This document shows, piece by piece, positions 632 to 38,935 of a stretch of DNA of 40,441 bases. A program made the translations under genes and the position numbers. Location of the stretch: contig JAFRNH010000110.1 in the NCBI GenBank assembly GCA_017430235.1, forward strand, positions 1-40,441, given 5' to 3'. A model generated the notes under the pieces. The model made no database searches. It saw nothing but the letters and a program-made list of their open reading frames with translations, and was not told the DNA's origin. Source of the stretch: Paludibacteraceae bacterium (GTDB lineage: Bacteria; Bacteroidota; Bacteroidia; Bacteroidales; Paludibacteraceae). Numbering within the stretch: the first letter of the stretch is position 1; each line of letters opens with the position of its first letter.

Positions 632-3600
632 TTACCGTTGTTTAATGAATTGCTGATAATAGACACCCTCAGCGGTCTCTATTTTTAGCATATAGATACC
701 AGGGATATAGTCGCGCACATCCATCTGGTTGTCTTGCATACTACTTCTCATCACCATACCATGCATGTCATAGCAAGTGCAATTCAAAATCTTCTCACTG
801 CAAACAACCTTGATAAAGTCTTTGGCTGGATTTGGATAAACCACAATCGCATTCTCATTTTTCAACTCCTCAACACCAGACTTATCACATCCCGAACCAT
901 TCTTATCGTTTGGTGTAGCCGATAATGTGTTTCCATCATCGCAATAAGAGAAGATAACCCAATCATCTCCATTATCCGTACTTCTTCCATACGACTCATT
1001 GGTTGCCAATTTGCCATATTGTACACAATCCAATAGTTCGCCATCTGGTGTCAACAAACAGATTTGTGATGTATTATCTACATCCAATTTGAAATCCAAA
1101 TAGTTGCTTCCATATCGACTGTCACCCTTTGCCCACAAAAGCAAACGCTCTCCTGGTTTCACGGTTAAATCATCCGAACTATATGGCAATACGGACACCT
1201 GAGAGTTCTTACTATTACTCAATTGGAAACCAGAAAGATTGATGGCAGATGTTCCATAATTATACACCTCAATCCAATCAGGATATTTGGCATAATCATC
1301 TGCATTTTTCGAATTAGCATCACTACTTGGACAAACCTCATTGATAACCAATGCAGGAGTAACGTTTTGAGACTTCTCAAAGATCGCAGTGATTTGGGTT
1401 GCACCCTTCAATGAGCCTGACAGATAACCTGGCAAGTACATTGCTTGCTCACCCGATTTCTCCTTTATCTCAATATTTTTCTCTTCCGAGATCTCCCATC
1501 CGGAGAATATGTATCCTTCCGGTGCATACGCATTCACCTGCATGTCATAACCTGCAATATATTTACCATCGAACTTCACAAATGGTTCATCATTCAATGT
1601 AAACTTAGCACCTTCCACATTCGAATGGATGGAGAGTTCCACCGCCCCATCTCCATTTACGTATGTGTTTATATGACCATAGATGTACTCGGGACGAGCC
1701 AAAGCAAACGTACGCATATCCTTAGCCGCATTGGCTGCATCCGTGTTTTTGTAGGCACAATACTCTTCTTTAACCAATCCTGTGATACTATCAAACACGG
1801 CTTTGATACGTTCCTCTGATAGATGATCAGCAAGGTTAAGCAAGAACTTGGTGACAAACTTGCGTTCAAACTGCTTATTCTTAGACAATGGTTTAAAAAT
1901 ATTCACCATCCAATCATGTTTGTTAGCCCACGATGTCTTTCCTTCTCCCTGACACCATTGGATCATATTTCGACTGCTGCTTCCACTCCAATCCGAACAT
2001 ATTTTGAATCCAAAGTCCAAATCAAATAATATCCATCGGAACAATCCGCCATTCTTCTCTCTCCATATCTTCGTGTTATTGCCTGGCCAATCGGTATTGG
2101 CTACAAACTGTTGTATGATTTGGTAGTCGATATACTCATCCATATCCATACGAGAAGCAGCCCCTTTGTAAAAATCTTCACTGTTCACATCCGTATGGTT
2201 CAGATACTCCACCAACTCGTTGTATGCATCCATATCCCCTTCCGTTGCTTTGATACCCAACTGATCAGAGACACGAATCATATCAATCTCATCATCATCC
2301 AATCCATAGTTGGCCTTCACATAGTCAGAAGTGGTACGCTCATGCAATCCCATCATTCCAACATACTTTCCATTCAAATAGTATGCTACCGGTTGATAGG
2401 CCTGATAGTCGATGTTCATACCAATGGCAAACGTCTGCATCAAACCGTCACGGAAAGGCACGCAACTATAACCACTACCTCCATTTCTCAAGTGAAGTGC
2501 CTGATGTATCATATCAGGTTTCGAAACAAAGAAATGATAATCAAAATGGTCGACACCCGTCTTTTTAGAAGATTTTAGAGAAATGGATTTGATGGATTCC
2601 AATCGTGAACAACCTCCGACAATTTCCGATTCTACTTCTTGTGAAACCACCTGACGTCCATCTACAATATATTCAAAATTCAACGGACGTTTCCAATCAC
2701 GATTGGCATTGGAAACCGTTCTCTGACAATCCTTCTCGCCCGACACACCGTTCTTTCCCGTCACAAACATACCCAACATTGGGTCATCATAATAAAGTTC
2801 ATCAATCGTAACCGAAACAATCGGTACGGTATATCCTCCACAGCCCTCATGCTTACTATCACTAAAGATATATGAAGCGGTCGCTATCTTACTAGACAAC
2901 ATACCCGAATGAATTGCCACAGCACGAATGTTCGCATTCTGACTCACATTTATCGCATCACTATAAAGTATTCCATTCGTCTCCGAAGGTTCCGTACCAT
3001 CCAACGTATAGTAGATCAAAGCACCTGAGGTGGCACATGATAAGGTGACCTCCGTTGGCGACTGAAGTAGTCCGGGTTGTTGATTAAACGTAGGTGCCTG
3101 ACATCTGTTGCTTGTAGTTAAATCTGACACAACAAATGTATTTTCTTCATACGGAGAGGGTTGCATATATCCCTCCGTATCTCCATAACGTCCAAATGAA
3201 ACGTGCGAATCCGTAAAACCATAGGCTATCGAATCGATCAACTCGCCATCGTATGACAAGGTGAGATATCCTCCATCCGTATCCAGTTTATAAGGTGCAT
3301 GATTGTTGGTGGATGATTCATCCGCCCATAGAATAGACAAATCAGAGCCTTTCAACAAAACAGTGTTGTCGATGGTCCACACCCACTTCTCTTTATACTT
3401 GTTTTTAGAGGTTAATTTATAATGCGTCAAGACACAATGTTTCAAATCAACCTGATAGGAAGCCCCATTCTTAAACTCTATATAACCAGAGAAATTATAA
3501 TTATCCGTATTCACATAGGTGGACATGTTGCAAGGCATCACCTCACTGAAACGCACCTTACTGAAATACTCCTTTGGATCCAATTTAGAGATATAATTAT

Positions 3601-4120
3601 CCTTGTAAGAATCAGAACAACGTCTGCATCGATGAAGTGTATAACCATCCTCATCGATCGTCGGGTCATGAACGATTGTTTCATAATCATGTCCCAAAGC
3701 CTCAATTTCCTCCGTATAAGAGTATTGACAAATTTTACAAACGTGCTTTTTAGAACCCTTCTCGGTACAGGTGGCAGCGATGGTCTCCTCTTGATATTGA
3801 TGTTGCTGAGGGGCAAACGTCTCACTGGTTTTATCTCCACATCGTGAACATGTATGGTTAATGACACCCCCTTCTTCACAATTCGACACCACATATTCAC
3901 TGTTATAATCATGTCCTACAGGAGCAACTGTCACTGTGTAAGTAGAATCACACTTCCTACACTTATAAGTTTCATATCCTTCTGATTCACAGTAGGTCAC
4001 CGAACCTTCCATACGGAACTCATGACGACATTCCTTACCAGGTTCCTCTGGTCCTGGAGGTGCCGAAAAAACAGACATTGTAAAACACAATGACAGAATA
4101 AAGATCAATCTGGTTTTCAT
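632..4120 (-). CDS. T9SS-sorted surface protein with Cys/His repeats, lamin-tail domains, chitobiase-C-like domain and CotH kinase domain
   Basis: This is a large exported protein of 1162 residues. I chose the internal ATG at 4120, not the one at 4150, because MKTRLIFILSLCFTMSVFSA is a clean signal peptide. Domains in order: about four 40-residue repeats with CxxC pairs and conserved His (GHDY, roughly residues 30-170); a lamin-tail-like beta domain starting VRFSEVMP; a chitobiase/hexosaminidase C-terminal-like domain with YYTLDGTEPS; a CotH kinase-like region with FDLDFGF as the likely metal-binding motif; a linker resembling bacterial surface repeats (GYIFSGWE); a second lamin-tail domain starting VINEVCPSS; and a C-terminal T9SS type-A sorting domain (VYPNPAKDF, ending in FIKQR). 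CotH proteins can be atypical protein kinases, but whether this one is active is unknown. A minus-strand TAAATTTG element lies upstream. The substrate is unknown. Confidence 0.85.
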   Translation of the reverse strand: MKTRLIFILSLCFTMSVFSAPPGPEEPGKECRHEFRMEGSVTYCESEGYETYKCRKCDSTYTVTVAPVGHDYNSEYVVSNCEEGGVINHTCSRCGDKTSETFAPQQHQYQEETIAATCTEKGSKKHVCKICQYSYTEEIEALGHDYETIVHDPTIDEDGYTLHRCRRCSDSYKDNYISKLDPKEYFSKVRFSEVMPCNMSTYVNTDNYNFSGYIEFKNGASYQVDLKHCVLTHYKLTSKNKYKEKWVWTIDNTVLLKGSDLSILWADESSTNNHAPYKLDTDGGYLTLSYDGELIDSIAYGFTDSHVSFGRYGDTEGYMQPSPYEENTFVVSDLTTSNRCQAPTFNQQPGLLQSPTEVTLSCATSGALIYYTLDGTEPSETNGILYSDAINVSQNANIRAVAIHSGMLSSKIATASYIFSDSKHEGCGGYTVPIVSVTIDELYYDDPMLGMFVTGKNGVSGEKDCQRTVSNANRDWKRPLNFEYIVDGRQVVSQEVESEIVGGCSRLESIKSISLKSSKKTGVDHFDYHFFVSKPDMIHQALHLRNGGSGYSCVPFRDGLMQTFAIGMNIDYQAYQPVAYYLNGKYVGMMGLHERTTSDYVKANYGLDDDEIDMIRVSDQLGIKATEGDMDAYNELVEYLNHTDVNSEDFYKGAASRMDMDEYIDYQIIQQFVANTDWPGNNTKIWREKNGGLFRWILFDLDFGFKICSDWSGSSSRNMIQWCQGEGKTSWANKHDWMVNIFKPLSKNKQFERKFVTKFLLNLADHLSEERIKAVFDSITGLVKEEYCAYKNTDAANAAKDMRTFALARPEYIYGHINTYVNGDGAVELSIHSNVEGAKFTLNDEPFVKFDGKYIAGYDMQVNAYAPEGYIFSGWEISEEKNIEIKEKSGEQAMYLPGYLSGSLKGATQITAIFEKSQNVTPALVINEVCPSSDANSKNADDYAKYPDWIEVYNYGTSAINLSGFQLSNSKNSQVSVLPYSSDDLTVKPGERLLLWAKGDSRYGSNYLDFKLDVDNTSQICLLTPDGELLDCVQYGKLATNESYGRSTDNGDDWVIFSYCDDGNTLSATPNDKNGSGCDKSGVEELKNENAIVVYPNPAKDFIKVVCSEKILNCTCYDMHGMVMRSSMQDNQMDVRDYIPGIYMLKIETAEGVYYQQFIKQR

Positions 4121-4265
4121 CGTAAAATGATTAATACACCTATTATACAACTAAGGGATTTTCATTCCCATTTAACTATTTATTCACTAAAAAACTCCTC
4201 AGTACAGCTTTATATTTATACTTTCACCTATACTATATCCATCATCATAAACATCAATCAGAGAG

Positions 4266-6006: not shown

Positions 6007-8388
6007 ATGAAACTACTCAGATTATTCTTTCTTCCATTGCTTTTGGTAACTCTCTCTGCTTCATCGCAAGAGATTGGCTCATGGAAAACATTCTTCTCCT
6101 ACAATAAAGTGGACTTTATCACACAGTCCAAGGATCGAATCTATGCATTAGGTAATGGTGTGCTCTTCTCTGTTGACAAACAGTATGAGAACATTCAAAC
6201 ATACACGAAAGCTGATGGTTTGTCAGATTGTTACATCTCGAAGATTGCTTACAGCGAACAGTTAGACGCCCTCATCATTGGCTATGACAATAGTAACATT
6301 GATATCATCAAAAAAAATAAAGTCGTCAATATATCCGACTTTAAAAGAAAGGAAATCAATGACAAACAAATCAATAGCATCACCACCCATGACAAATACG
6401 CTTACCTTGCCTGCGGATTAGGAATCGTGGTCGTTGATATGAAAAGAAATGAAATTGCAGACATGTACATCATTGGTGACAATGGACAATATCTCGCAGT
6501 ATATCAAGTGGAGATCATCGACAATACCATCTATGCCTTGACACAAGAAGGATTGCGATGCGCAAACATCAAGGAATCTAACTTAGCCGATTATGCAAAA
6601 TGGAGTCGTGCCACCCTAACAAATGGGAAACTTCAAACAATTGCCAACGACGACTCCGTCTCTCTTAGCGCTATAAACCCAAAGGCAGACAAACAACTCC
6701 AAACAATTGCCAACTTTAACAACCAACTTATATTGGTCTACCAAGATTCCATAGCTGTAGTTCACGCTGATAAAACTACCGAGAATCTACAAAACATACA
6801 CGATTTCAAGAGCATCTCCACCTCATCCGATGCTATCGTCATCGCTGCGGGAGATTCCCTATTCAACTACGACAAATCACTGGAGCTAAAAGAGATTGTT
6901 TTCACAGATTACACTAAATATGCCATCTATACACCATCCACCAACTCCTATTGGGTGGCTCGCGCACAAGACTACGTAAACAGTCAATCTGAAATCTTCA
7001 ACCTCTTCAAATACAAATATGGTGTGTCGGCTGGCAAATTTGTTCCTAACGGACCTCTATCACATACGGTCGCATTCCTCAAATATGAGTATGGACAACT
7101 CATTACAGGTAGTGGTGGTCAGTTTGATATCCCAATATTAGACTATCCTGGTGTTGTCCAAATCATGGAAAACAATGAGTGGACCGTCATCACTGAATCT
7201 GACTTTGAACCAGGCGTTACCATACGCGAGAAATCAAGGTTCGTAGACGTTCTGGATGCTATAGTGGACCCTTCCGATCATAAACGAATTTACATAGCTT
7301 CATGGCGTTCTTTGTTCGAACTATACGACAAGAAACCTTACAAACACTATTGGACAGAGAACACAGCTCTGACCAATACCAGTAGCCGTATCCTAATTGA
7401 TGGTCTCTGTTTCGACAAAGACAACAATCTATGGATACCGAACCACCTATCTCCATCTGGACTAGTTGTAAAAAAAGCAGACGGTACTTGGCAAGCGTTC
7501 GACTATTCAGAAGTTAAAGACACTCGTTTCAAGGAGACATTCATCAGTAAAAATGGCCTTATGTGGATTATCCGTCCTCGTCCTAACAACGGAGCTGGTG
7601 TGGTCGTAATAGACCAAAACGGCACTCCGTTCGAACAAAGCGATGACAAGCACATTTACTACAGTTCATTCCAAGATGCGGACGGAAACACAGTCACTCC
7701 TAATGCCTTCCGATGCGTTACCGAAGATAAAAACAATGAGATATGGATCGGAACCAGCACAGGTCCGCTAATCGTCACTGACCAAAAGAAGATTTTTGAC
7801 AAAAACTTCACCATCAATCGTGTAAAAATCACGCGTGAAGACAATGCAAACTATGCGGATTACTTGCTAGGAAGCGACCAGATAAACGCTATCATCGTGG
7901 ATGGTGGCAATCGTAAATGGTTAGGTTCCTCCACTTCTGGTGTCTATCTCCTCTCTCCCGACGGAAAAGAGACCCTTCTTCACTTCACAACGGAAAACAG
8001 TCCGCTGACATCCAACACCGTCATCGACATGGCGATGAATCAGGAAACTGGCGAACTATATATTGCTACATCCAACGGACTCTTCTCATACATGACCAAT
8101 TCCTCAGAACCTGCAGAAGACTACTCTGGCGTCTATGCATATCCGAACCCTGTGACTCCAGACTTCGACGGAGAAATAGCAGTTAAAGGTCTGGTGGGAA
8201 ACAGCCTCGTTCGTATCTCTGATGTTGAAGGAAAGGTTATATACGAGGATTACTCAAACGGAGGAACATTCACCTGGAATGGCAAAAACCTCAAAAACAA
8301 ACGTGTGGCATCTGGTATCTATTACATATTTGCTGCACAAGAAGATGGTTCCATGAAGATGGTGACGAAAATAGCCTTTATCCATTAA
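6007..8388 (+). CDS. porZ: PorZ-like T9SS beta-propeller protein
   Basis: In Porphyromonas gingivalis PorZ is a surface component of the type IX secretion attachment complex that helps deliver anionic LPS to the PorU sortase. This 793-residue protein has the same plan. A signal peptide (MKLLRLFFLPLLLVTLSASS) is followed by QEIGSWKTFFSYN, then many propeller-blade repeats resembling the two-component regulator propeller family (IWIGTSTGPLIV, KWLGSSTSGVYLL, LYIATSNGLFSY). It ends in a C-terminal T9SS-like domain from about residue 705 (YAYPNPVTPDF to KIAFIH). Length is close to that of PorZ. The N-terminal blades and the single-copy housekeeping context favour PorZ over a hybrid two-component sensor, since no kinase follows. 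Two other proteins in the window carry T9SS sorting domains, so the host uses this pathway. Confidence 0.78.
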   Translation: MKLLRLFFLPLLLVTLSASSQEIGSWKTFFSYNKVDFITQSKDRIYALGNGVLFSVDKQYENIQTYTKADGLSDCYISKIAYSEQLDALIIGYDNSNIDIIKKNKVVNISDFKRKEINDKQINSITTHDKYAYLACGLGIVVVDMKRNEIADMYIIGDNGQYLAVYQVEIIDNTIYALTQEGLRCANIKESNLADYAKWSRATLTNGKLQTIANDDSVSLSAINPKADKQLQTIANFNNQLILVYQDSIAVVHADKTTENLQNIHDFKSISTSSDAIVIAAGDSLFNYDKSLELKEIVFTDYTKYAIYTPSTNSYWVARAQDYVNSQSEIFNLFKYKYGVSAGKFVPNGPLSHTVAFLKYEYGQLITGSGGQFDIPILDYPGVVQIMENNEWTVITESDFEPGVTIREKSRFVDVLDAIVDPSDHKRIYIASWRSLFELYDKKPYKHYWTENTALTNTSSRILIDGLCFDKDNNLWIPNHLSPSGLVVKKADGTWQAFDYSEVKDTRFKETFISKNGLMWIIRPRPNNGAGVVVIDQNGTPFEQSDDKHIYYSSFQDADGNTVTPNAFRCVTEDKNNEIWIGTSTGPLIVTDQKKIFDKNFTINRVKITREDNANYADYLLGSDQINAIIVDGGNRKWLGSSTSGVYLLSPDGKETLLHFTTENSPLTSNTVIDMAMNQETGELYIATSNGLFSYMTNSSEPAEDYSGVYAYPNPVTPDFDGEIAVKGLVGNSLVRISDVEGKVIYEDYSNGGTFTWNGKNLKNKRVASGIYYIFAAQEDGSMKMVTKIAFIH

Positions 8389-31810: not shown

Positions 31811-34303
31811 TTATCCCATAATCACTTCTACAGTGTTCTTGCTACCTGCAGGTTGCATAGGAACGATGTTTCCAGCAACTTCCTTGCCGTTAACGATCAG
31901 TTTCTTTACACCTTTCTGAACACCGCTTGGGTTTGTTACTTTGATGCTATATTCTGCATCACGGAATATACGGTTAACTGAGTATCCCTTAATGTCAGCT
32001 GGCAAACAAGGATTGATTTCCAAACCTGTATAGGCTGGTTTGATACCCAATAGGTATTGGCTCACTGTCAACCACATCCAAGCTGCAGTACCTGTCAACC
32101 AAGAGTTCTTACCTTCACCTGGCTTAGCTGCATCCTTACCTGCTACCATCTGGCAGTTTACGTAAGGTTCAACCTTATGAAGTGCTTGATCTTTCAAATA
32201 CATAGGAGCAATCTTACGGAAGAGTTCCCAAGCATCATTTCCACGTCCGGCAACTGTCTCTCCGATGATCACCCATGGGTTGTTGTGACAGAAGATACCT
32301 GCATTCTCTTTATATCCTGCAGGATAAGAACTGATCTCACCCATCTCAACATGATATGTTGTATAAGCAGGATTGTTAAGAACCATACCGTGCTCGCAGT
32401 CGAGATATTTCTTACAAGAGTCGATAGCTTTGTCAACCATACCCTCTTCCAAACCGATACCTGCCATTGTACAGAAACCTTGGCTCTCGATAAAGATCTT
32501 ACCTTCTTCACACTCCTTAGAACCAATCTTGTTTCCATAGAAGTCGTATGCACGAAGATACCAGTCTCCATCCCAACCATGCTTCTTAACAGCTTCAACC
32601 ATAGAGTCGATGCACTTTTGAGCACGAGCAGCCTCATCAGCCTTGCCCAATTGCTTGCAAAGTTCAACATAGTCTTTTCCAGTTACAACGAACAAACCAG
32701 CGATCATCAAAGACTCTGCCTTGCTACCTACTGAATTATTCTCAGTTGTTTGGAATGACTCGTTTGGATCCCAAGAGAAGCAGTTCAAGTTCAAGCAGTC
32801 GTTCCAGTCTGCACGACCGATCAACGGCAACATGTGAGGACCGAGGTTGTTAACCACGTGGTTGAAAGAGATCTTCAAGTGTTCGAACAAAGAAACCTCT
32901 GAACCTGGCTTGTTATCAAATGGAACAGGCTCATCCAAGATAGAGAAGTCGCCCGTCTCCTTAACATAAGCAGCCGTACCGAAGATCAACCAGCATGGAT
33001 CATCGTTGAATCCACCACCGATGTCATTGTTACCACGCTTAGTCAATGGTTGATATTGGTGATAGCAACCACCGTCTGGGAATTGAGTAGATGCGATATC
33101 AATGATACGTTGACGAGCACGAGAAGGAACTTGGTGAACGAAACCAACCAAGTCTTGGTTAGAATCACGGAATCCCATACCACGACCGATACCACTCTCG
33201 AAGAATGATGCTGAACGAGAGAAGTTGAAGGTAATCATACATTGATATTGACTCCAGATATTAACCATACGGTTCAATTTCTCGTCGTCAGACTTAACAA
33301 CGTAAACCTCCAAAAGCTTATCCCACATAGCAGCCAACTCAGCAAATGCATCGTCAACAGCCTTCACAGTAGAGAAACGGTTGATTGTCTCAAGCGCTTT
33401 TTTCTTGTTAACAAGTGTTACATCTGAATCTTGTGAAGAGATCAGTGTTCCGTTTTTCTTACGTGTGATATCTTCTTTAGAGAATTTCTCTTCTTGCTCA
33501 TTCTCAACATAACCCAACACAAAGATGAAGTCTTTGCTCTCGCCTGGCTGAAGTTCTACTTCAACATAGTGAGATGCGATTGGAGACCATCCGTGTGCCA
33601 ATGAATTACCTGGCTTACCTGCCATTACACATTGAGGATCAGCAAACTCATTATAAAGACCGATGAATGACTCACGATCTGTATCATAACCATCTATTTT
33701 AGAATTAGTTAATGCATAATATGCATAATGGTTACGACGCTCTTTATATTCTGTTTTGTGATAGATTACACTGCCATCGATTTCCACCTCACCTGTTGAC
33801 CAGTTACGTTGGAAATTCTCCATATCAGTTGCAGCATTCCACAAACACCACTCAGCAAAAGAAAAGAGTTTTATCTTCTTTGCATAGGTAGTTGTATTCT
33901 TCAATGTTACTTTTTGAACCTCAGCCCACGTTTTCAAAGGAACGAAGAACAATACAGAAGCCTCAATACCATTCTTTGAACCAGTAATACGTGTATAGTT
34001 CATTCCATGACGACACTCGTATGAGTCAAGCGGAGTCTTACATGGCTTCCATCCCGGATTCCAAACTGTACCATTATCGTTAATATAGAAATAACGACCT
34101 CCATTATCCATTGGTACACCATTGTAACGGTAACGAGTAATACGGCGGAACTTAGCGTCCTTGTAGAAATCATAACCTCCGGCAGTATTTGAAATCAAAC
34201 CGAAGAAATCCTCGTTTCCTAAATAATTAATCCATGGAAACGGCGTTGCGGGATTGGTGATGACAAACTCACGGTTCGCATCGTCAAAATGTCCAAAATT
34301 CAT
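31811..34303 (-). CDS. Glycoside hydrolase family 94, cellobiose phosphorylase
   Basis: This enzyme phosphorolyses cellobiose to glucose 1-phosphate and glucose, saving one ATP per disaccharide. The 830-residue protein has no signal peptide, so it is cytoplasmic. The N-terminus ([38 protein letters not shown]) is typical of cellobiose phosphorylase; the beta-sandwich domain runs to about residue 300, followed by the (alpha/alpha)6 domain with [13 protein letters not shown], and [13 protein letters not shown] (about 494-506) carrying the catalytic acid. Length agrees with known cellobiose phosphorylases and is far below that of the cyclic-glucan synthases. The ATG is preceded by AAAGGAGAGA, an unusually good ribosome-binding site. 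It is the first gene of the operon, with a -7 element about 60 bases upstream. Confidence 0.93.
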
Positions 34304-35024: not shown

Positions 35025-35657
35025 TTACTGTTGCAATTCCGTCAAAATCAACTTCAGTTTTAATTTTGGATGATGAATGGTAACCACCTGCTCATCAAAA
35101 ACTGCATTCATACGTTTTATGCAACATCCATTTTGAATATTACGAACGAAATTTGTGCCTTTGGGATAGATGAGATAATCACACTCCCCATCATCTGCCT
35201 TCACTCCATAACCAATCCAATCTGGTTTCTGAGGATTTTTATAATAGATGGCTGAGAAATGTTCTGGCACATTCAGCATAAACAAACTTCTAAAATCCTT
35301 CTCTAAGATATTCAACACCACCTTTTTATTCATTTGTTCCATGCAACTGTTGACAATAAAACTGTCTCTTGAAACAGAGAAATCAAAGAGTGACACACCG
35401 AAAGTAGTCATCATCACCATACGGAAGCGACCCTCCGACTCTTTTGTCAGCGCCAAAATACCCGACATTGAGTTTTCTTTGAAATCAATCTGTGCCGAAT
35501 AATATTTAGCACTATCCAAATGATCAAAAGCAGGCATTAGATTGCCACGGTGTATCTTGACAGAAGTAGCAGGTCGCATATCCAAGTTTCTGAACAACTT
35601 AGGAGTGCAACCTGCCATTATAACAATCAAGAAGGGAAGTAAAATATACTTACGCAT
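35025..35657 (-). CDS. LolB-like outer-membrane lipoprotein (tentative)
   Basis: This 210-residue lipoprotein starts MRKYILLPFLIVIMAGC (lipobox cysteine 17). The mature part shows alternating beta-strands, YYSAQIDFKENSMSGILALT, RFRMVMMTTFGVSLFDFSV and SFIVNSCMEQMNKKVVLNIL, as in the half-barrel fold of LolB and related acceptors, and ends with HHPKLKLKLILTELQQ. The family assignment rests on this pattern and on context: its ATG lies one base after the stop of the LolA-like gene, so the pair is translationally coupled, as expected for a carrier and its outer-membrane receptor. It is the last gene of the FabG-LolA group and is followed by a terminator. Its cargo is probably a lipid product, not lipoproteins, but that is inferred. 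Confidence 0.65.
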   Translation of the reverse strand: MRKYILLPFLIVIMAGCTPKLFRNLDMRPATSVKIHRGNLMPAFDHLDSAKYYSAQIDFKENSMSGILALTKESEGRFRMVMMTTFGVSLFDFSVSRDSFIVNSCMEQMNKKVVLNILEKDFRSLFMLNVPEHFSAIYYKNPQKPDWIGYGVKADDGECDYLIYPKGTNFVRNIQNGCCIKRMNAVFDEQVVTIHHPKLKLKLILTELQQ

Positions 35658-35658
35658 C

Positions 35659-36309
35659 TTATTTTATCACAAAAATTGAATCAGACACCTTCTCATTTAG
35701 TTTTTTATTAGAGAAAGTATACTCTGTATAATCATTCTTCGACTGACCTTTTTTCAATGGTTCAATCATTTTCATCTTCACTACGGAGAAGTCCTTCTTA
35801 TCGAGATAAAGATCCACCTGTTGTGCAAATTTCTTGATATCTGCAGTTTTAGGAGTAATCTTCACCAAATAATTGGCACCATCCACAAAGAATTCCAATT
35901 GATAGTTCTCGCCCATATTAGCGATATCACCACTCATACAAGCGGAGATCACCTTCTTCAACTCACCAGCCATTGGATTAGCAGAAGCGTCCATTATATT
36001 TTTCTTTCCGTTCATCTCCATCATCAGCTTATTACCATTCATCACAAGGTTTTGTTTGAATGGAGCCAAATACTCCAACTTCACCTTGTTCTCTTTTTGG
36101 TAATAAAATTTTCCAGATGATTTCATGCTATTACCCATAGCAGAGACATATTTTTCTTGAGTAAAGTCGCTTTGAATAGAGGAAACATTCGCAGCAGCTT
36201 TTTGCATTTTAGCCTTCAAATCTGCCACATCAGAAACGGGTTCTGCAGCTTGTAAGGAAAATGACAAAGAAGCAAATGCCATAGCGGCCCATACCAATAC
36301 TTTCTTCAT
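35659..36309 (-). CDS. LolA-like outer-membrane lipid/lipoprotein carrier
   Basis: This 216-residue periplasmic protein starts at the ATG at 36309 (MKKVLVWAAMAFASLSFSLQAAEP, signal peptide, no lipobox), which is preferable to a TTG nine bases earlier. The mature part has the LolA layout: DLKAKMQKAAANVSSIQSDF near residue 30, then YYQKENKVKLEYLAPFKQNL, MNGNKLMMEMNGKKNIMDAS and QVDLYLDKKDFSVVKMKM on the strands of the half-barrel. LolA-like carriers of this kind occur in Bacteroidota aryl-polyene and flexirubin loci next to FabG and the ammonia-lyase, where they probably move the lipid-linked pigment across the periplasm. It is 84 bases after fabG with a palindrome between, and 1 base before the LolB-like gene. 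Confidence 0.85.
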   Translation of the reverse strand: MKKVLVWAAMAFASLSFSLQAAEPVSDVADLKAKMQKAAANVSSIQSDFTQEKYVSAMGNSMKSSGKFYYQKENKVKLEYLAPFKQNLVMNGNKLMMEMNGKKNIMDASANPMAGELKKVISACMSGDIANMGENYQLEFFVDGANYLVKITPKTADIKKFAQQVDLYLDKKDFSVVKMKMIEPLKKGQSKNDYTEYTFSNKKLNEKVSDSIFVIK

Positions 36310-36336
36310 AATCTTCAAAATTTATTATTAAACATT

Positions 36337-36364
36337 GTAGAGACGTACGAAGGCACGTCTCTAC
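36337..36364. repeat. Perfect 10-bp inverted repeat between fabG and the LolA-like gene
   Basis: GTAGAGACGT (36337-36346) and ACGTCTCTAC (36355-36364) flank an 8-base loop. The motif resembles REP-like palindromes of the GTAGAGACG type scattered between genes in many bacteria. No T run follows, so it is not an ordinary terminator. Whether it repeats elsewhere in this genome cannot be seen. Confidence 0.6.
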
Positions 36365-36393
36365 GATTATTCAATTCTATTTTATGCTTCTGA

Positions 36394-37122
36394 TTAGGTG
36401 TAGAGACCACCATTTACAGAGATGGTCTGACCTGTGATATAAGAAGCAGCATCAGAGACTAAGAATCCCACTGTAGCAGCGATTTCCTCTGGCTCGCCGA
36501 AACGATTCATCGGAATCTGTGCTTTCAGAGTTGATTCATCCAAGTCGTGTGTCATATCGGTACGAACAAATCCAGGAGCCACTGCATTCACTGTAACGCC
36601 CTTGCGTGCCACCTCTTGTGCCAATGCCTTAGTTGCAGCCATTACAGCACCTTTAGCAGCCGAATAGTTCGTTTGTCCTGGCAATCCTTTTTGTCCTGAT
36701 AAGGAGACCATGTTTACAATACGACCACGTTTTTTTGTCAACATAGGTTTCAATACCGAACGAGTCGTGTACATGAAACCGTTCAAACTTGTGTCCAACA
36801 CTTTGGACCAGTCTTCGTTCGTCATCCATAACAATAGGTTATCACGACGAACACCTGCATTGTTTACCAAGCACTCAATATATTCATTTTCATGAGCTTC
36901 TTGCCAGTCTGTGATGGACTTCTCCACCTCTGAAGGATTGGCAACATCAAACTTCATAATCTCTCCGTCTGAGTTCTTCTCTCGTACCAACTTCAACGTA
37001 TTCAAAGCCTCTGCTTCATTTGATTGAAAATTGATAATCACATAATAACCCATCTCGGCAAGTTTCACTGCGCATGCTCGACCTATTCCTCTTGATGCGC
37101 CCGTAACTAAAGCTACTTTCAT
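36394..37122 (-). CDS. FabG-type 3-oxoacyl-ACP reductase
   Basis: This 242-residue short-chain dehydrogenase/reductase uses NADPH to reduce 3-oxoacyl thioesters. It shows [10 protein letters not shown] (residues 6-15), [10 protein letters not shown] near residue 88 (the FabG-type RxDNL), the catalytic Ser of MVSLSGQKG and the YSAAK tyrosine/lysine pair near residue 152, and ends [14 protein letters not shown]. The RRDNL and [12 protein letters not shown] blocks resemble the FabG of aryl-polyene clusters more than generic SDRs, in my judgement. Primary fatty-acid FabG cannot be excluded, but the neighbours (ammonia-lyase, LolA-like protein, LolB-like protein) favour the pigment pathway. A 240-base gap with direct repeats and a possible -7 element separates it from the ammonia-lyase gene. 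Confidence 0.87.
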
Positions 37123-37161
37123 TGGTTTTTCTTTTATATTTTCACTCTTTAATTGAGATTG

Positions 37162-37169
37162 TAAAGATA
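37162..37169 (-). promoter_or_regulatory. Candidate -7 element of the fabG-lolA genes
   Basis: The minus strand reads TATCTTTA, one base off TAnnTTTG, 40 bases before the fabG ATG. Tentative. Confidence 0.35.
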
Positions 37170-37240
37170 GGTGTTTTTTTCCTTACTACAAAACTCTTTT
37201 CTTCTTTCTTCACATTCTCAACGAGTTACAATTGAACTAT

Positions 37241-37272
37241 ATCGACCAATCCATGATATCCATCGACCAATC
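37241..37272. promoter_or_regulatory. Pair of 11-bp direct repeats upstream of fabG, possible activator site
   Basis: ATCGACCAATC occurs at 37241-37251 and again at 37262-37272, a period of exactly 21 bp (two DNA turns). It lies about 90 bases upstream of the predicted fabG transcription start and between the ammonia-lyase terminator and that promoter. Such spacing is typical of activators that bind tandem sites on one face of DNA. Confidence 0.45.
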
Positions 37273-37286
37273 GACTTCTATTTCTC

Positions 37287-37322
37287 ATAAAAAAAGGTGT
37301 CGACAGCATCTGCCAACACCTT
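37287..37322 (-). terminator. Intrinsic terminator of the ammonia-lyase gene
   Basis: On the minus strand AAGGTGTTGGCAG pairs with CTGTCGACACCTT (13 bp with two G-T wobbles) around ATG, followed by a run of T. It lies about 40 bases after the stop codon. Confidence 0.85.
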
Positions 37323-37362
37323 ATCTTTGCTTGGGTGGATTCTACAAATTCACCTTTATCTT

Positions 37363-38892
37363 TTAGAAACGTTTGTTTCTCAAATACTCTTGCATACGTG
37401 CAATATCCTCATACTTAGTGGTATCTTCCACAAACTTAGGGAAGAAGGCTCTTATCTCATCATATATTGCTTTCGTTTTTGGAGCTAACTTATTAGCAGA
37501 ATTCAAGCAATCTATACCTTGCACAATAGACATGAAGTGAATAGCCATCACTTGATAAGCATTATCCACCACTCTCTTCGCCAATAAGGCTGAATTGGTA
37601 CCCATACTAACAACATCCTGATTATCATTGTTGTTTGGAATGGAATGAACATACATGGAATTGGAAAGCGTCTGACACTCAGCCGTAGTTGAAGTGGCAG
37701 TGAATTGGCAGGCTTGCATACCATAATTCAATCCAAGTACACCCATATTCACAAATGGAGGTAAGATCTCATTGATTCTGTCATGGAACAGATAGTTCAT
37801 CTGACGTTCCATCAACATGGTTAATTTTGTCACTGCGATCTTCAACTTATCCATTTCGAAAGAGACATAGTCTCCATGGAAGTTTCCTCCATGATATACA
37901 GTCTTTGTATCTACGTCTACAATTGGATTATCTGTTGCTGAATTGACTTCATTCTCCAATACTCGTGCGGTGTTTTGCAATGTTTCCAAAACTGGTCCTA
38001 AGATTTGAGGAACGCATCTCAACGAGTAATAAGGTTGTACTTTGTGTTTGAAAACTGACTCGTTTTGGTGACCACCATCGTACAATGCTTTTTCGCGATT
38101 GAGTAGGCACTTGCTACCTGCGCACCACTCTCTCATCATCTTAGCAATCTCACTTTGTCCGGGTTGACGACGAACGGCATTCAATTTTTCATTCATCAAA
38201 TCATCGTATGATGAAGCGATCTCATTCACCATAACAGAGGCGATAACAGCCCACTGCAACAGTTTCTGTGCGTCAAACAAGTTAATCAATCCGATACCTG
38301 TCATGAAAGAAGTACCATTTGTCACAGACAATCCTTCACGAACATGAATGTCCATAGGTTTCAATCCTAATTTCTTCAACACCTCAGAAGCTGGTTGGAA
38401 TTTACCTTCGTAGTTGACCTGACCTTCACCGATAAGAGTCAATGCCATGTGGGCCAATTGAACCAAATCACCACTTGAACCAACACTTCCGTGTTCTGGA
38501 ATAAATGGAAAGATATCTTTGTTGATAAAATTAGCTAACAACTCTACAAGTTCAGGATGAACACCCGACTCTCCCTGGATGAAAGTTCCGATACGAGCAA
38601 TCATTGCTGCCTTTACATAGATATTAGGCAATGGGTTACCAGCACCGGCTGAGTGACTTCTAATGATGTTGTATTGCAACTGTATTCTTTCATCATCACT
38701 CACACGATATTGTGCCATCGGGCCAAATCCTGTATTAATTCCATATATCACGCGTTCTTTAGAAAACTCAGCTAAAAACTCATAGCTTTTTTTTACTCGA
38801 TCCTTAATCTTCGATGTGAAAGCAATCTCCTTACCATCAAACAATATAGCATGAATATCTTCCAACGAGATATATTCCAGTTCTTTCTGCAT
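37363..38892 (-). CDS. Aromatic amino acid ammonia-lyase (HAL/TAL family) with an SSG cofactor triad
   Basis: These lyases use an autocatalytic MIO group to remove ammonia from aromatic amino acids; Bacteroidota members in flexirubin/aryl-polyene loci make 4-coumarate or cinnamate as the pigment starter. The 509-residue protein matches the Flavobacterium tyrosine ammonia-lyase in my memory over long blocks: VIYGINTGFGPMAQYR (catalytic Tyr50), LQYNIIRSHSAG, EHGSVGSSGDLVQLAHM (MIO region), YYSLRCVPQILGPVLET and HSIPNNNDNQDVVSMGTN. The MIO triad reads Ser139-Ser140-Gly141 instead of the usual Ala-Ser-Gly. The SH pair in IIRSHSAG is histidase-like but is also present in Flavobacterium TAL, so the substrate is uncertain. 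No other histidine-degradation genes are nearby. It has its own -7 element (TATCTTTG) and terminator. Confidence 0.9.
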   Translation of the reverse strand: MQKELEYISLEDIHAILFDGKEIAFTSKIKDRVKKSYEFLAEFSKERVIYGINTGFGPMAQYRVSDDERIQLQYNIIRSHSAGAGNPLPNIYVKAAMIARIGTFIQGESGVHPELVELLANFINKDIFPFIPEHGSVGSSGDLVQLAHMALTLIGEGQVNYEGKFQPASEVLKKLGLKPMDIHVREGLSVTNGTSFMTGIGLINLFDAQKLLQWAVIASVMVNEIASSYDDLMNEKLNAVRRQPGQSEIAKMMREWCAGSKCLLNREKALYDGGHQNESVFKHKVQPYYSLRCVPQILGPVLETLQNTARVLENEVNSATDNPIVDVDTKTVYHGGNFHGDYVSFEMDKLKIAVTKLTMLMERQMNYLFHDRINEILPPFVNMGVLGLNYGMQACQFTATSTTAECQTLSNSMYVHSIPNNNDNQDVVSMGTNSALLAKRVVDNAYQVMAIHFMSIVQGIDCLNSANKLAPKTKAIYDEIRAFFPKFVEDTTKYEDIARMQEYLRNKRF

Positions 38893-38927: not shown

Positions 38928-38935
38928 CAAAGATA
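38928..38935 (-). promoter_or_regulatory. -7 promoter element of the ammonia-lyase gene
   Basis: The minus strand reads TATCTTTG, a full TAnnTTTG match, 35 bases before the ATG. Confidence 0.65.

Follow-up and report, generated by a model that had tools for sequence, protein, structure and literature searches.

Aryl-polyene genes usually occur, and are usually recognized, as one cluster. The present locus raises the question of which pathway is served by four genes that resemble the accessory part of such a cluster and stand among unrelated neighbors. The window (the whole stretch of DNA analysed, 40,441 bases) is an entire contig, C108, of a Paludibacteraceae genome assembly of 2.71 Mb in 111 contigs (88% complete). 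The block and its members, scored with curated NCBI flexirubin models, are located as follows:

35025-38892, minus strand: four-gene block flxA, flxB, lolA2, lolB2
37363-38892, minus strand: FlxA, 509 aa (NF053541, 854.4 bits, cut-off 700)
36394-37122, minus strand: FlxB, SDR-family ketoreductase, 242 aa (NF053542, 390.2 bits, cut-off 340)
35659-36309, minus strand: LolA2, periplasmic LolA-like carrier (NF053544, 186.0 bits, cut-off 125; PF03548)
35025-35657, minus strand: LolB2, LolB-like outer-membrane lipoprotein, 210 aa (NF053540, 89.7 bits, cut-off 60)

All four open reading frames named in the first-pass annotation were confirmed in place, and its likening of these minus-strand genes to aryl-polyene/flexirubin accessory genes holds, as all four exceed the curated flexirubin cut-offs. 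The flanks had been described as unrelated and the window as devoid of ketosynthase and exporter genes, and both descriptions agree with what was found: the neighbors examined comprise GH94, GH5 and GH3 genes with an MFS transporter at one flank and, at the opposite flank, a CHU_C type IX secretion-signal protein, and genome-wide searches gave no ketoacyl synthase match and no MMPL match in the window. Judged from sequence, the four genes very probably supply the starter and the periplasmic transfer step of a flexirubin-type aryl-polyene pathway. The remaining genes of that pathway are encoded elsewhere in the genome, and the set as a whole looks like a mosaic of two complementary cluster remnants.

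The most conventional alternative is an ordinary histidine ammonia-lyase adjoining housekeeping FabG and LolA genes. FlxA is the sole PF00221 match in the genome and contains the motifs YGINTGFG, NGTS, YSLRC and NQDVVSMG. At what we take to be the MIO triad, SSG stands in place of ASG, whereas the orthologue in genus genome G002 has ASG; a literature search on an SSG triad in MIO lyases returned nothing. Its SH motif, presumably HAL-like, favors the histidine reading, as does FlxB by exceeding the cut-off of one broad FabG subfamily (253.1 versus 222). A HAL-like first specificity motif is, however, likewise reported in the available sections for the C. pinensis enzyme, a tyrosine lyase of proven activity (PMC3992019). 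Moreover, the hutH equivalog fails for FlxA (440, cut-off 539.15) and the housekeeping lolA equivalog fails for LolA2 (58.7, cut-off 112), whereas all four flexirubin models pass; for FlxB, none of the FabG equivalogs that rank in the 25 best families listed reaches its cut-off (nearest 272.9 versus 273). The curated models thus set the FabG-like and LolA-like members apart from the primary pathways, and on these scores histidine degradation and primary FabG/LolA roles were rejected, with a likelihood bordering on the negligible. By analogy with the C. pinensis enzyme, FlxA is inferred to be a tyrosine ammonia-lyase producing a 4-coumarate starter.

The reading frame of LolA2 was called mechanically at 35659-36318 (219 aa), and the ATG at 36309 is the more likely start. 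The N-terminus is signal-peptide-like, and a profile search against solved structures matches LolA (8t5j, E 1e-12). In LolB2, a lipobox-like stretch finishes at Cys17, which is invariant in 17 sequences, and the AlphaFold2 model (pLDDT 85.4) consists mostly of strands with a single long central helix. The profile sequence search of LolB2 against solved structures matched none; the assignment of a putative LolB fold draws on the NCBIfam match and on the appearance of the model. Of the 15 other genomes with FlxA that were searched, 9 have a LolB2 above the cut-off and 5 have no match, among them L048 and L059, whose clusters are near-complete; LolB2 is therefore not universal among FlxA-bearing genomes. 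A candidate dedicated lipid route via LolA2 and LolB2, as suggested at first pass from their coupling, would fit the literature.

Two candidate expression signals accompany the block:

38928-38935, minus strand: possible Bacteroidota -7 box TATCTTTG, weak, 43 bases upstream of flxA
37294-37322, minus strand: terminator-like hairpin and T run in the flxA-flxB gap (13-pair stem, 3-base loop, T tail)

Both TATCTTTG and TANNTTTG were judged by what we take to be the Bacteroidota -7 consensus. TANNTTTG occurs upstream of flxA in 9 of 16 genomes of the genus versus 10.5% in mononucleotide shuffles, and seven of these nine copies lie 36-43 bases ahead of the start; upstream of other genes it is found for flxB in 1/15, LPLAT 0/6, KSc 10/15 and KS2 2/7. 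The full TTTG-N17-23-TANNTTTG pattern is absent upstream of flxA in the window, and the strict Bacteroidota promoter pattern gives two matches window-wide, equal to chance (mean 1.94), none of them near the four genes. Between 34200 and 39300, six terminator-like sites were counted versus a shuffle mean of 2.5; the hairpin between flxA and flxB suggests two transcription units.

Most of the remaining parts of the pathway are present in the same genome. Searches for ketosynthases, ACPs and MMPL proteins located them on other contigs (C4, C35 and C29), with acyltransferases, FlxJ and FlxY, so that of the two explanations offered by the first-pass annotation the split across the chromosome is the right one, and the smaller, undescribed pathway is not needed. 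C35 and C4 between them supply ketosynthases, a chain-length partner, ACP, dehydratase and MMPL exporter, the gene kinds of flexirubin-type clusters. On C35, a FlxJ-family methyltransferase (607.6 bits, cut-off 560) adjoins KS, ACP, CLF-like, GT2 and MMPL-acyltransferase fusion genes in the order LPLAT-FlxJ-HD-KS1-KSN-ACP-KS2-CLF-SMR-HD-GT2-MMPL. The C4 arm reads KSc-ACP-HD-TE-HD-MMPL-FAD oxidase, the hotdog (HD) genes being assigned partly from neighborhood and tblastn. The FlxY ligase (687.2 bits, cut-off 520) is encoded on C29; an MMPL-like gene is also seen on that contig. DarB was not found in this 88% complete genome, where PF08545 matches only KS1 on C35 and the FabH of C24, which sits in the primary fatty-acid region; the product may hence be without the resorcinol half.

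According to the available sections of two papers (PMC3992019; PMC11885536), C. pinensis (flxA Cpin_1853 to flxY Cpin_1877) and F. johnsoniae (lolB2 Fjoh_1084, lolA2 Fjoh_1085) share the NCBI families FlxA, FlxB, FlxJ, FlxY, LolA2 and LolB2 and the same kinds of KS, ACP, dehydratase and exporter. They have one main cluster, with darA/darB of C. pinensis elsewhere, whereas here the polyene genes occupy three to five contigs and no DarB was detected. Parabacteroides gordonii MS-1 (L163/L164) has the same gene kinds, with identities to the present genome of 68% for FlxA, 65% for FlxB, 71% for KSc and 69% for FlxJ, but unlike the genus studied here it keeps FlxA to FlxY as one run of about 23 kb. 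Its genes with a match in the own-genome pieces compared have their best match on C108, C4 or C35, and its deacetylase and C45 acyltransferase are unmatched in those pieces. The E. coli apeA-R locus, in the sections available, likewise combines KS/ACP/KR/DH genes with an RND exporter (ApeM), LolA-like ApeL and LolB-like ApeN; it differs in its predicted 4-hydroxybenzoate starter, a gene table without an ammonia-lyase, its single locus and its phylum (PMC8253772). Flexirubin clusters are described in Flavobacteriaceae, and the flexirubin passages available are silent on splitting (PMC10734526). Among the matches listed by a literature search of titles and abstract openings, a split or mosaic flexirubin/aryl-polyene pathway is undescribed.

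The dispersal is common to the genus. FlxA, FlxJ, KSc and KS2 were found in all 16 genus genomes and FlxY in 14; FlxA never shares a contig with KSc, FlxJ or KS2 (16/16) and is separate from FlxY in all 14 genomes in which the latter was found. KS2 and FlxJ lie on separate contigs in 9 of the 16. None of the 16 genomes shows a single main cluster, the five markers being spread over three to five contigs per genome. Flexirubin chemistry does not require clustered genes. As the genomes are multi-contig drafts, marker distances measured from contig ends are lower bounds: in all but one of the 7 genomes measured, 16.6 kb or more separate FlxA from any other marker, and in the present genome, where FlxA lies 1.6 kb from its contig end, the separation is at least 5.6 kb. 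An assembly or binning artefact could be suspected from the fragmentation, since the present assembly has 111 contigs and some contigs concerned measure only about 10 kb. This is very unlikely and was rejected, because the identical separation recurs in all 16 genomes, with many contigs above 40 kb and the largest 376 kb, and unrelated genes border the block in the window.

The block itself is intact in 13 of the 16 genomes, interrupted by a contig end in 2 and rearranged in 1, which establishes the linkage in relatives, and it is retained within differing surroundings. Such cohesion might indicate a smaller aromatic-lipid pathway that is complete in itself and does not depend on C4 or C35, but the block holds neither a ketosynthase nor an MMPL gene, on which ground this possibility was rejected, and the complementary genes co-occur in all genus genomes examined; the idea is highly implausible. 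For 11 pathway genes, dN/dS between two genus genomes (G000 and G006) ranges from 0.007 to 0.071.

The origin of the dispersed pathway was approached by phylogeny. Clusters resembling that of P. gordonii were designated type I and another cluster type type II, labels coined in this analysis; the types were defined following a first quick tree, so that the AU p values are post hoc. KSc groups with type I (100/100; type II placement rejected, post hoc AU p 0.044), whereas KS1 (100/100) and KS2 (100/99) group with type II (type I placement rejected, post hoc AU p 0.026 and 0.011, respectively); in P. gordonii all three are type I. The FlxB of the genus joins type I FlxB at 90/88, under the star level of the tool, and type II was rejected (post hoc AU p 3e-10). 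FlxA groups with sister Paludibacteraceae in a tree that does not resolve the deep type split, and can be considered type I only via these relatives. The genus is represented by 6 of 16 genomes in the KS2 tree, 3 in the KSc tree and 15 in the KS1 tree. Short and identical rows were omitted from the KS and FlxJ sets, from which L137 (G015) is also absent; the FlxB tree, with 50 rows of which 3 belong to neither type, omitted identical rows and hits below 170 residues, and the FlxA tree omitted truncated L035 and duplicates L108-L122.

Best hits divide similarly. They fall to type II for the C35 genes LPLAT, HD1, KSN, ACP, CLF, SMR and GT2, the last by a slim margin (264 versus 246 bits), and to type I for LolA2, LolB2, the FAD protein and the C4 genes TE, HD4, ACP and MMPL, with few or no type II references for FlxY, the FAD protein and LolB2, since several reference loci end earlier. 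The type is ambiguous for FlxJ (70% versus 69% between types), for the MMPL of C35 and for two hotdog proteins. One genome, G014, carries KSc of both types: its second KSc, of type II (100/100), lies ahead of its C35-like arm, and joining it to the C4 KSc of the genus was rejected (p 0.004).

It is therefore reasonably probable that the pathway is a chimera, in which two related flexirubin clusters shared a genome, underwent reciprocal loss and had their pieces dispersed to up to five contigs while purifying selection acted on them. Type I genes for the starter, the ketoreductase and the Lol proteins would then operate with type II elongation enzymes. The probability is set no higher because the FlxA tree does not separate the types at depth. 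A further point against this reading is the extra KSc of G014, which calls for roughly three losses in other genomes or a single regain. The initial reading, the mere break-up of one cluster, was displaced by the trees and persists as a possible but rather unlikely rival: a single ancestral cluster would have been broken by rearrangement, and the apparent second type would stem from uneven rates or from gene replacement in place. Clusters do come apart in related lineages: in one record from a sister Paludibacteraceae lineage, the type I cluster is divided into two blocks on the same strand with about 16 kb between them, the FlxA-FlxY pair of Tannerella loci is separate from the other genes, and KS2 is not on the FlxJ contig in the nine genus genomes noted above; the post hoc nature of the AU tests also counts in its favor. 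Nevertheless, one ancestral cluster accounts poorly for KS1 and KS2 siding with type II while KSc and FlxB side with type I, and for both KSc types in G014.

For the favored two-cluster origin, the most likely starting point would be a genome with two related clusters, each losing a part supplied by the other. The P. gordonii-like cluster would have left FlxA-FlxB-LolA2-LolB2 in the window and the KSc-to-FAD oxidase arm on C4, and the other cluster most of the LPLAT-to-MMPL arm on C35. Gene presence, placement and relatedness are what the sequences show, and the pathway steps are deduced from families and precedents. FlxA would deaminate tyrosine to 4-coumarate, as does the C. pinensis enzyme, and FlxY would activate it. 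The C4 and C35 ketosynthases and ACPs, with FlxB and the hotdog dehydratases, would then extend and reduce the chain to an aryl polyene, to be methylated by FlxJ and joined to a lipid by the acyltransferases. MMPL proteins would shift this lipid out of the inner membrane, and LolA2 would ferry it through the periplasm to the outer-membrane protein LolB2.

In this gut genus, a near-complete gene set has been kept and its clustering lost, and cluster-based genome mining will therefore probably yield partial, unrelated-looking hits. The graded series within one genus (three, four or five contigs, and the extra gene in G014) makes cluster exchange and dispersal traceable, and the LolA2-LolB2 pair, staying beside FlxB outside a cluster, offers a natural setting for the question of the pigment carrier.

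The four open reading frames at 35025–38892 had been read in the first-pass annotation as aryl-polyene/flexirubin accessory genes for a lyase, a ketoreductase, and LolA-like and LolB-like proteins. An ORF check found their placement exact, and all four score above the cut-offs of the NCBI curated flexirubin equivalogs:

35025–38892, minus strand: block of four genes
FlxA, lyase: 854.4 bits (cut-off 700)
FlxB, ketoreductase: 390.2 bits (cut-off 340)
LolA2, LolA-like: 186.0 bits (cut-off 125)
LolB2, LolB-like: 89.7 bits (cut-off 60)

Pfam concurs for FlxA (Lyase_aromatic), FlxB (adh_short_C2), and LolA2 (LolA). LolB2 has no Pfam match; it shows an invariant Cys at a lipobox-like stretch and a fairly confident, strand-rich predicted model (pLDDT 85.4). 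A hutH identity for the lyase (440 vs. 539) and a housekeeping lolA identity for LolA2 (58.7 vs. 112) fell below cut-off. Among the best 25 of 233 families, the window SDR remains narrowly under the closest FabG equivalog (272.9 vs. 273), and it exceeds the cut-off of one broad FabG subfamily (253.1 vs. 222). An Ala-Ser-Gly triad gives rise to the MIO cofactor; FlxA carries this triad in 41/41 rows outside the genus, and Ser-Ser-Gly (window 38470–38478, minus strand) in 14 of the 16 genus genomes (exceptions G002 and G007). Elsewhere the window encodes a PorZ-like protein (6007–8388), and at 632–4150 it holds a CotH-kinase gene whose product carries a type IX sorting domain. The window makes up the entire contig C108 of a 2.71 Mb draft genome. 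Among named relatives, the nearest are MAGs of Bacteroidales and Paludibacteraceae, whose isolate names point to horse faeces, the rumen, and further gut sites of ruminants.

Ketosynthases, ACPs, and an MMPL exporter, sought in the full genome as the annotation had advised, are all present on other contigs (C4 and C35, with KS and MMPL matches also on C24 and C29). Six ketoacyl synthase matches (C24, C29, C4, C35) and seven MMPL-type matches (C29, C35, C4, C24; one below cut-off) were obtained. C24, with the order SecDF-IspG-FabH-FabK-FabF, is presumably a primary region. The pathway genes are arranged as follows:

C35, first part: LPLAT, FlxJ (607.6 vs. 560), hotdog, KS1, two DUF4230 genes, KSN (KS-like fragment)
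C35, second part: ACP, KS2, chain-length-factor-like KS (CLF), SMR-type protein, hotdog, GT2, 1236-residue MMPL-acyltransferase fusion
C4: KSc, ACP, hotdog, thioesterase, hotdog, 1001-residue MMPL protein, CrtI/CrtD-like FAD protein
C29: FlxY (687.2 vs. cut-off 520), 4.0 kb from the contig end

Since FlxY follows a C35-type arm on the same contig in G006, G010, G014, and G015, C29 may adjoin C35. The DUF4230 genes (fetched locus L007, 7733–9036) also recur in these four genomes and were not found in the corresponding arms of G002 and G007. DarB, a FabH-like enzyme that serves the dialkylresorcinol half, was not found in this genome, where PF08545 matches only the C24 FabH and, weakly, KS1; at 88% completeness, the gene may have escaped the assembly. 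The safe name for the product is "flexirubin-type aryl polyene".

Parabacteroides gordonii MS-1, in contrast, holds the gene kinds spread here over several contigs in one cluster of ~23 kb:

FlxA-FlxB-KSc-ACP-LPLAT-FlxJ-hotdog-TE-KS1-ACP-KS2-CLF-deacetylase-LolA2-LolB2-hotdog-GT2-MMPL/LPLAT/methyltransferase-FAD protein-C45 acyltransferase-FlxY

Among the own-genome pieces compared, its FlxA, FlxB, LolA2, and LolB2 find their best match in the window and the remaining matching genes on C4 or C35; the deacetylase and C45 acyltransferase have no match there. From this division, the window block looks like a usual cluster that lacks its middle and keeps its two ends. FlxA, FlxB, KSc, FlxJ, KS1, and KS2 all lie inside the 10-kb flank in 12/56 named FlxA loci (L042, L043, L044, L047, L048, L052, L055, L057, L058, L059, L062, L075). 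Other arrangements occur: FlxA adjoins FlxY in Tannerella (L045, L046, L050, L074), a second, differently composed detached arm, with other flexirubin genes not found in the fetched flanks; in sister Paludibacteraceae L167/L168 and L193, an additional ACP-KS2-CLF set lies near a P. gordonii-like (type I) cluster; and one sister record (G136, contig C76, presumably equal to G018:C76 by length and FlxA position) has such a cluster in two same-strand halves ~16 kb apart.

The dispersal extends through the genus. The annotation's alternative of a split pathway holds in 16/16 genus genomes, with FlxA on its own contig apart from KSc, FlxJ, and KS2, and the synteny check recovered the FlxA-FlxB-LolA2-LolB2 block whole in 13/16. 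A contig end interrupts it in two (G007, G008), and in G014 FlxB-LolA2-LolB2-GH94-GH5 lies ~14 kb away from FlxA. FlxA, FlxJ, KSc, and KS2 are each present in 16/16 and FlxY, above its cut-off, in 14/16; FlxA shares a contig with none of the others (0/16). These markers occupy three contigs in G006, G010, G014, and G015, four in G000, G002, G004, G007, and G011 (G004 and G011 without FlxY), and five in G001, G003, G005, G008, G009, G012, and G013. Distances from FlxA to the nearest marker, lower bounds from contig ends computed for 7/16 genomes, are at least 39 kb (G001), 48 kb (G003, excluding FlxY), 16.6 kb (G006), 23.6 kb (G010), 41 kb (G013), and 34 kb (G014), and only 5.6 kb in the own genome. 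KS2 and FlxJ are on separate contigs in 9/16 genomes; all four fetched KS2 regions of these nine read KSN-ACP-KS2-CLF-SMR-hotdog-GT2. In the wider family, FlxA exceeds its cut-off in 43/120 genomes and FlxJ in 27/120; of the 26 with both, 23 carry them on different contigs, some short, and three on the same contig, at a distance of 29 kb in one and within 5 kb in two.

The arms probably derive from two related flexirubin clusters once present in one genome, each losing what the other supplied. Type I denotes P. gordonii-like and sister-Paludibacteraceae clusters, type II those like L048, L052, L055, L058, L060, L062, L065, and L066. Weighing against this reading, the labels were assigned after a quick tree, making the AU p values post hoc:

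Placement of genus genes, with AU rejection of the other type
KSc (3 rows): type I, 100/100; type II rejected, p 0.044
FlxB (14 rows): type I, 90/88; type II rejected, p 3e-10
KS2 (6 rows): type II, 100/99; type I rejected, p 0.011
KS1 (15 rows): type II, 100/100, long-branch warning; type I rejected, p 0.026

Genus FlxA forms one clade (100/98) adjoining other Paludibacteraceae (99/94), in a tree whose deeper part, with several long branches and unsettled forks, does not settle the type I/II split. For most other genes, best matches outside the genus are consistent with this division: sister Paludibacteraceae for LolA2 and LolB2, type I for the C4 TE, HD4 (hotdog), ACP, MMPL, and FAD protein, and type II for C35 HD1 (hotdog), KSN, ACP, LPLAT (48% vs. 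30% type I), CLF (46% vs. 31%), and, narrowly, GT2. C35 SMR matches type II only. As several reference loci stop short of the last cluster genes, absent matches carry little weight there. FlxJ is nearly tied (70% vs. 69%), and neither type is favoured by the MMPL protein of C35 or by two of the hotdog proteins. The two gene sets overlap little, as mutual loss after cohabitation predicts. G014 has a second KSc and ACP in usual cluster order ahead of its LPLAT-FlxJ arm (L136, 6.7–8.1 kb); this KSc, without internal stop, is type II (100/100), long-branched, and separate from the genus C4 KSc (p 0.004). A two-cluster origin requires three losses or one regain to account for this extra gene, a point that weighs against it.

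Selection has kept the pathway genes, with dN/dS 0.007–0.071 for 11 of them (G000 vs. G006); more distant pairs, at or near saturation, carry little information. Recombinant FlxA of Chitinophaga pinensis is reported to convert tyrosine to 4-coumarate, and its FlxY to be a 4-coumarate-CoA ligase (PMC3992019). The E. coli aryl-polyene locus is described with LolA-like ApeL, RND ApeM, and LolB-like ApeN (PMC8253772); by this precedent, the same Lol-type transfer route would operate here. LolB2 is above cut-off in 9/15 other FlxA-bearing genomes and was not found in five, which argues against a universal need. The neighbouring GH94 gene (window 31811–34303) and its G014 counterpart are nearly identical (dS 0.09), with dS 1.3 for FlxB, 1.9 for LolB2, and saturation for LolA2 in the same pair; the sugar-gene segment perhaps reflects recent transfer or recombination.

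No published account of such a split or chimeric pathway appeared among the titles and abstract openings of the matches listed, a set with most subscription journals outside its scope. The protein families are already known; what is new is the gene organisation and its probable mosaic origin.
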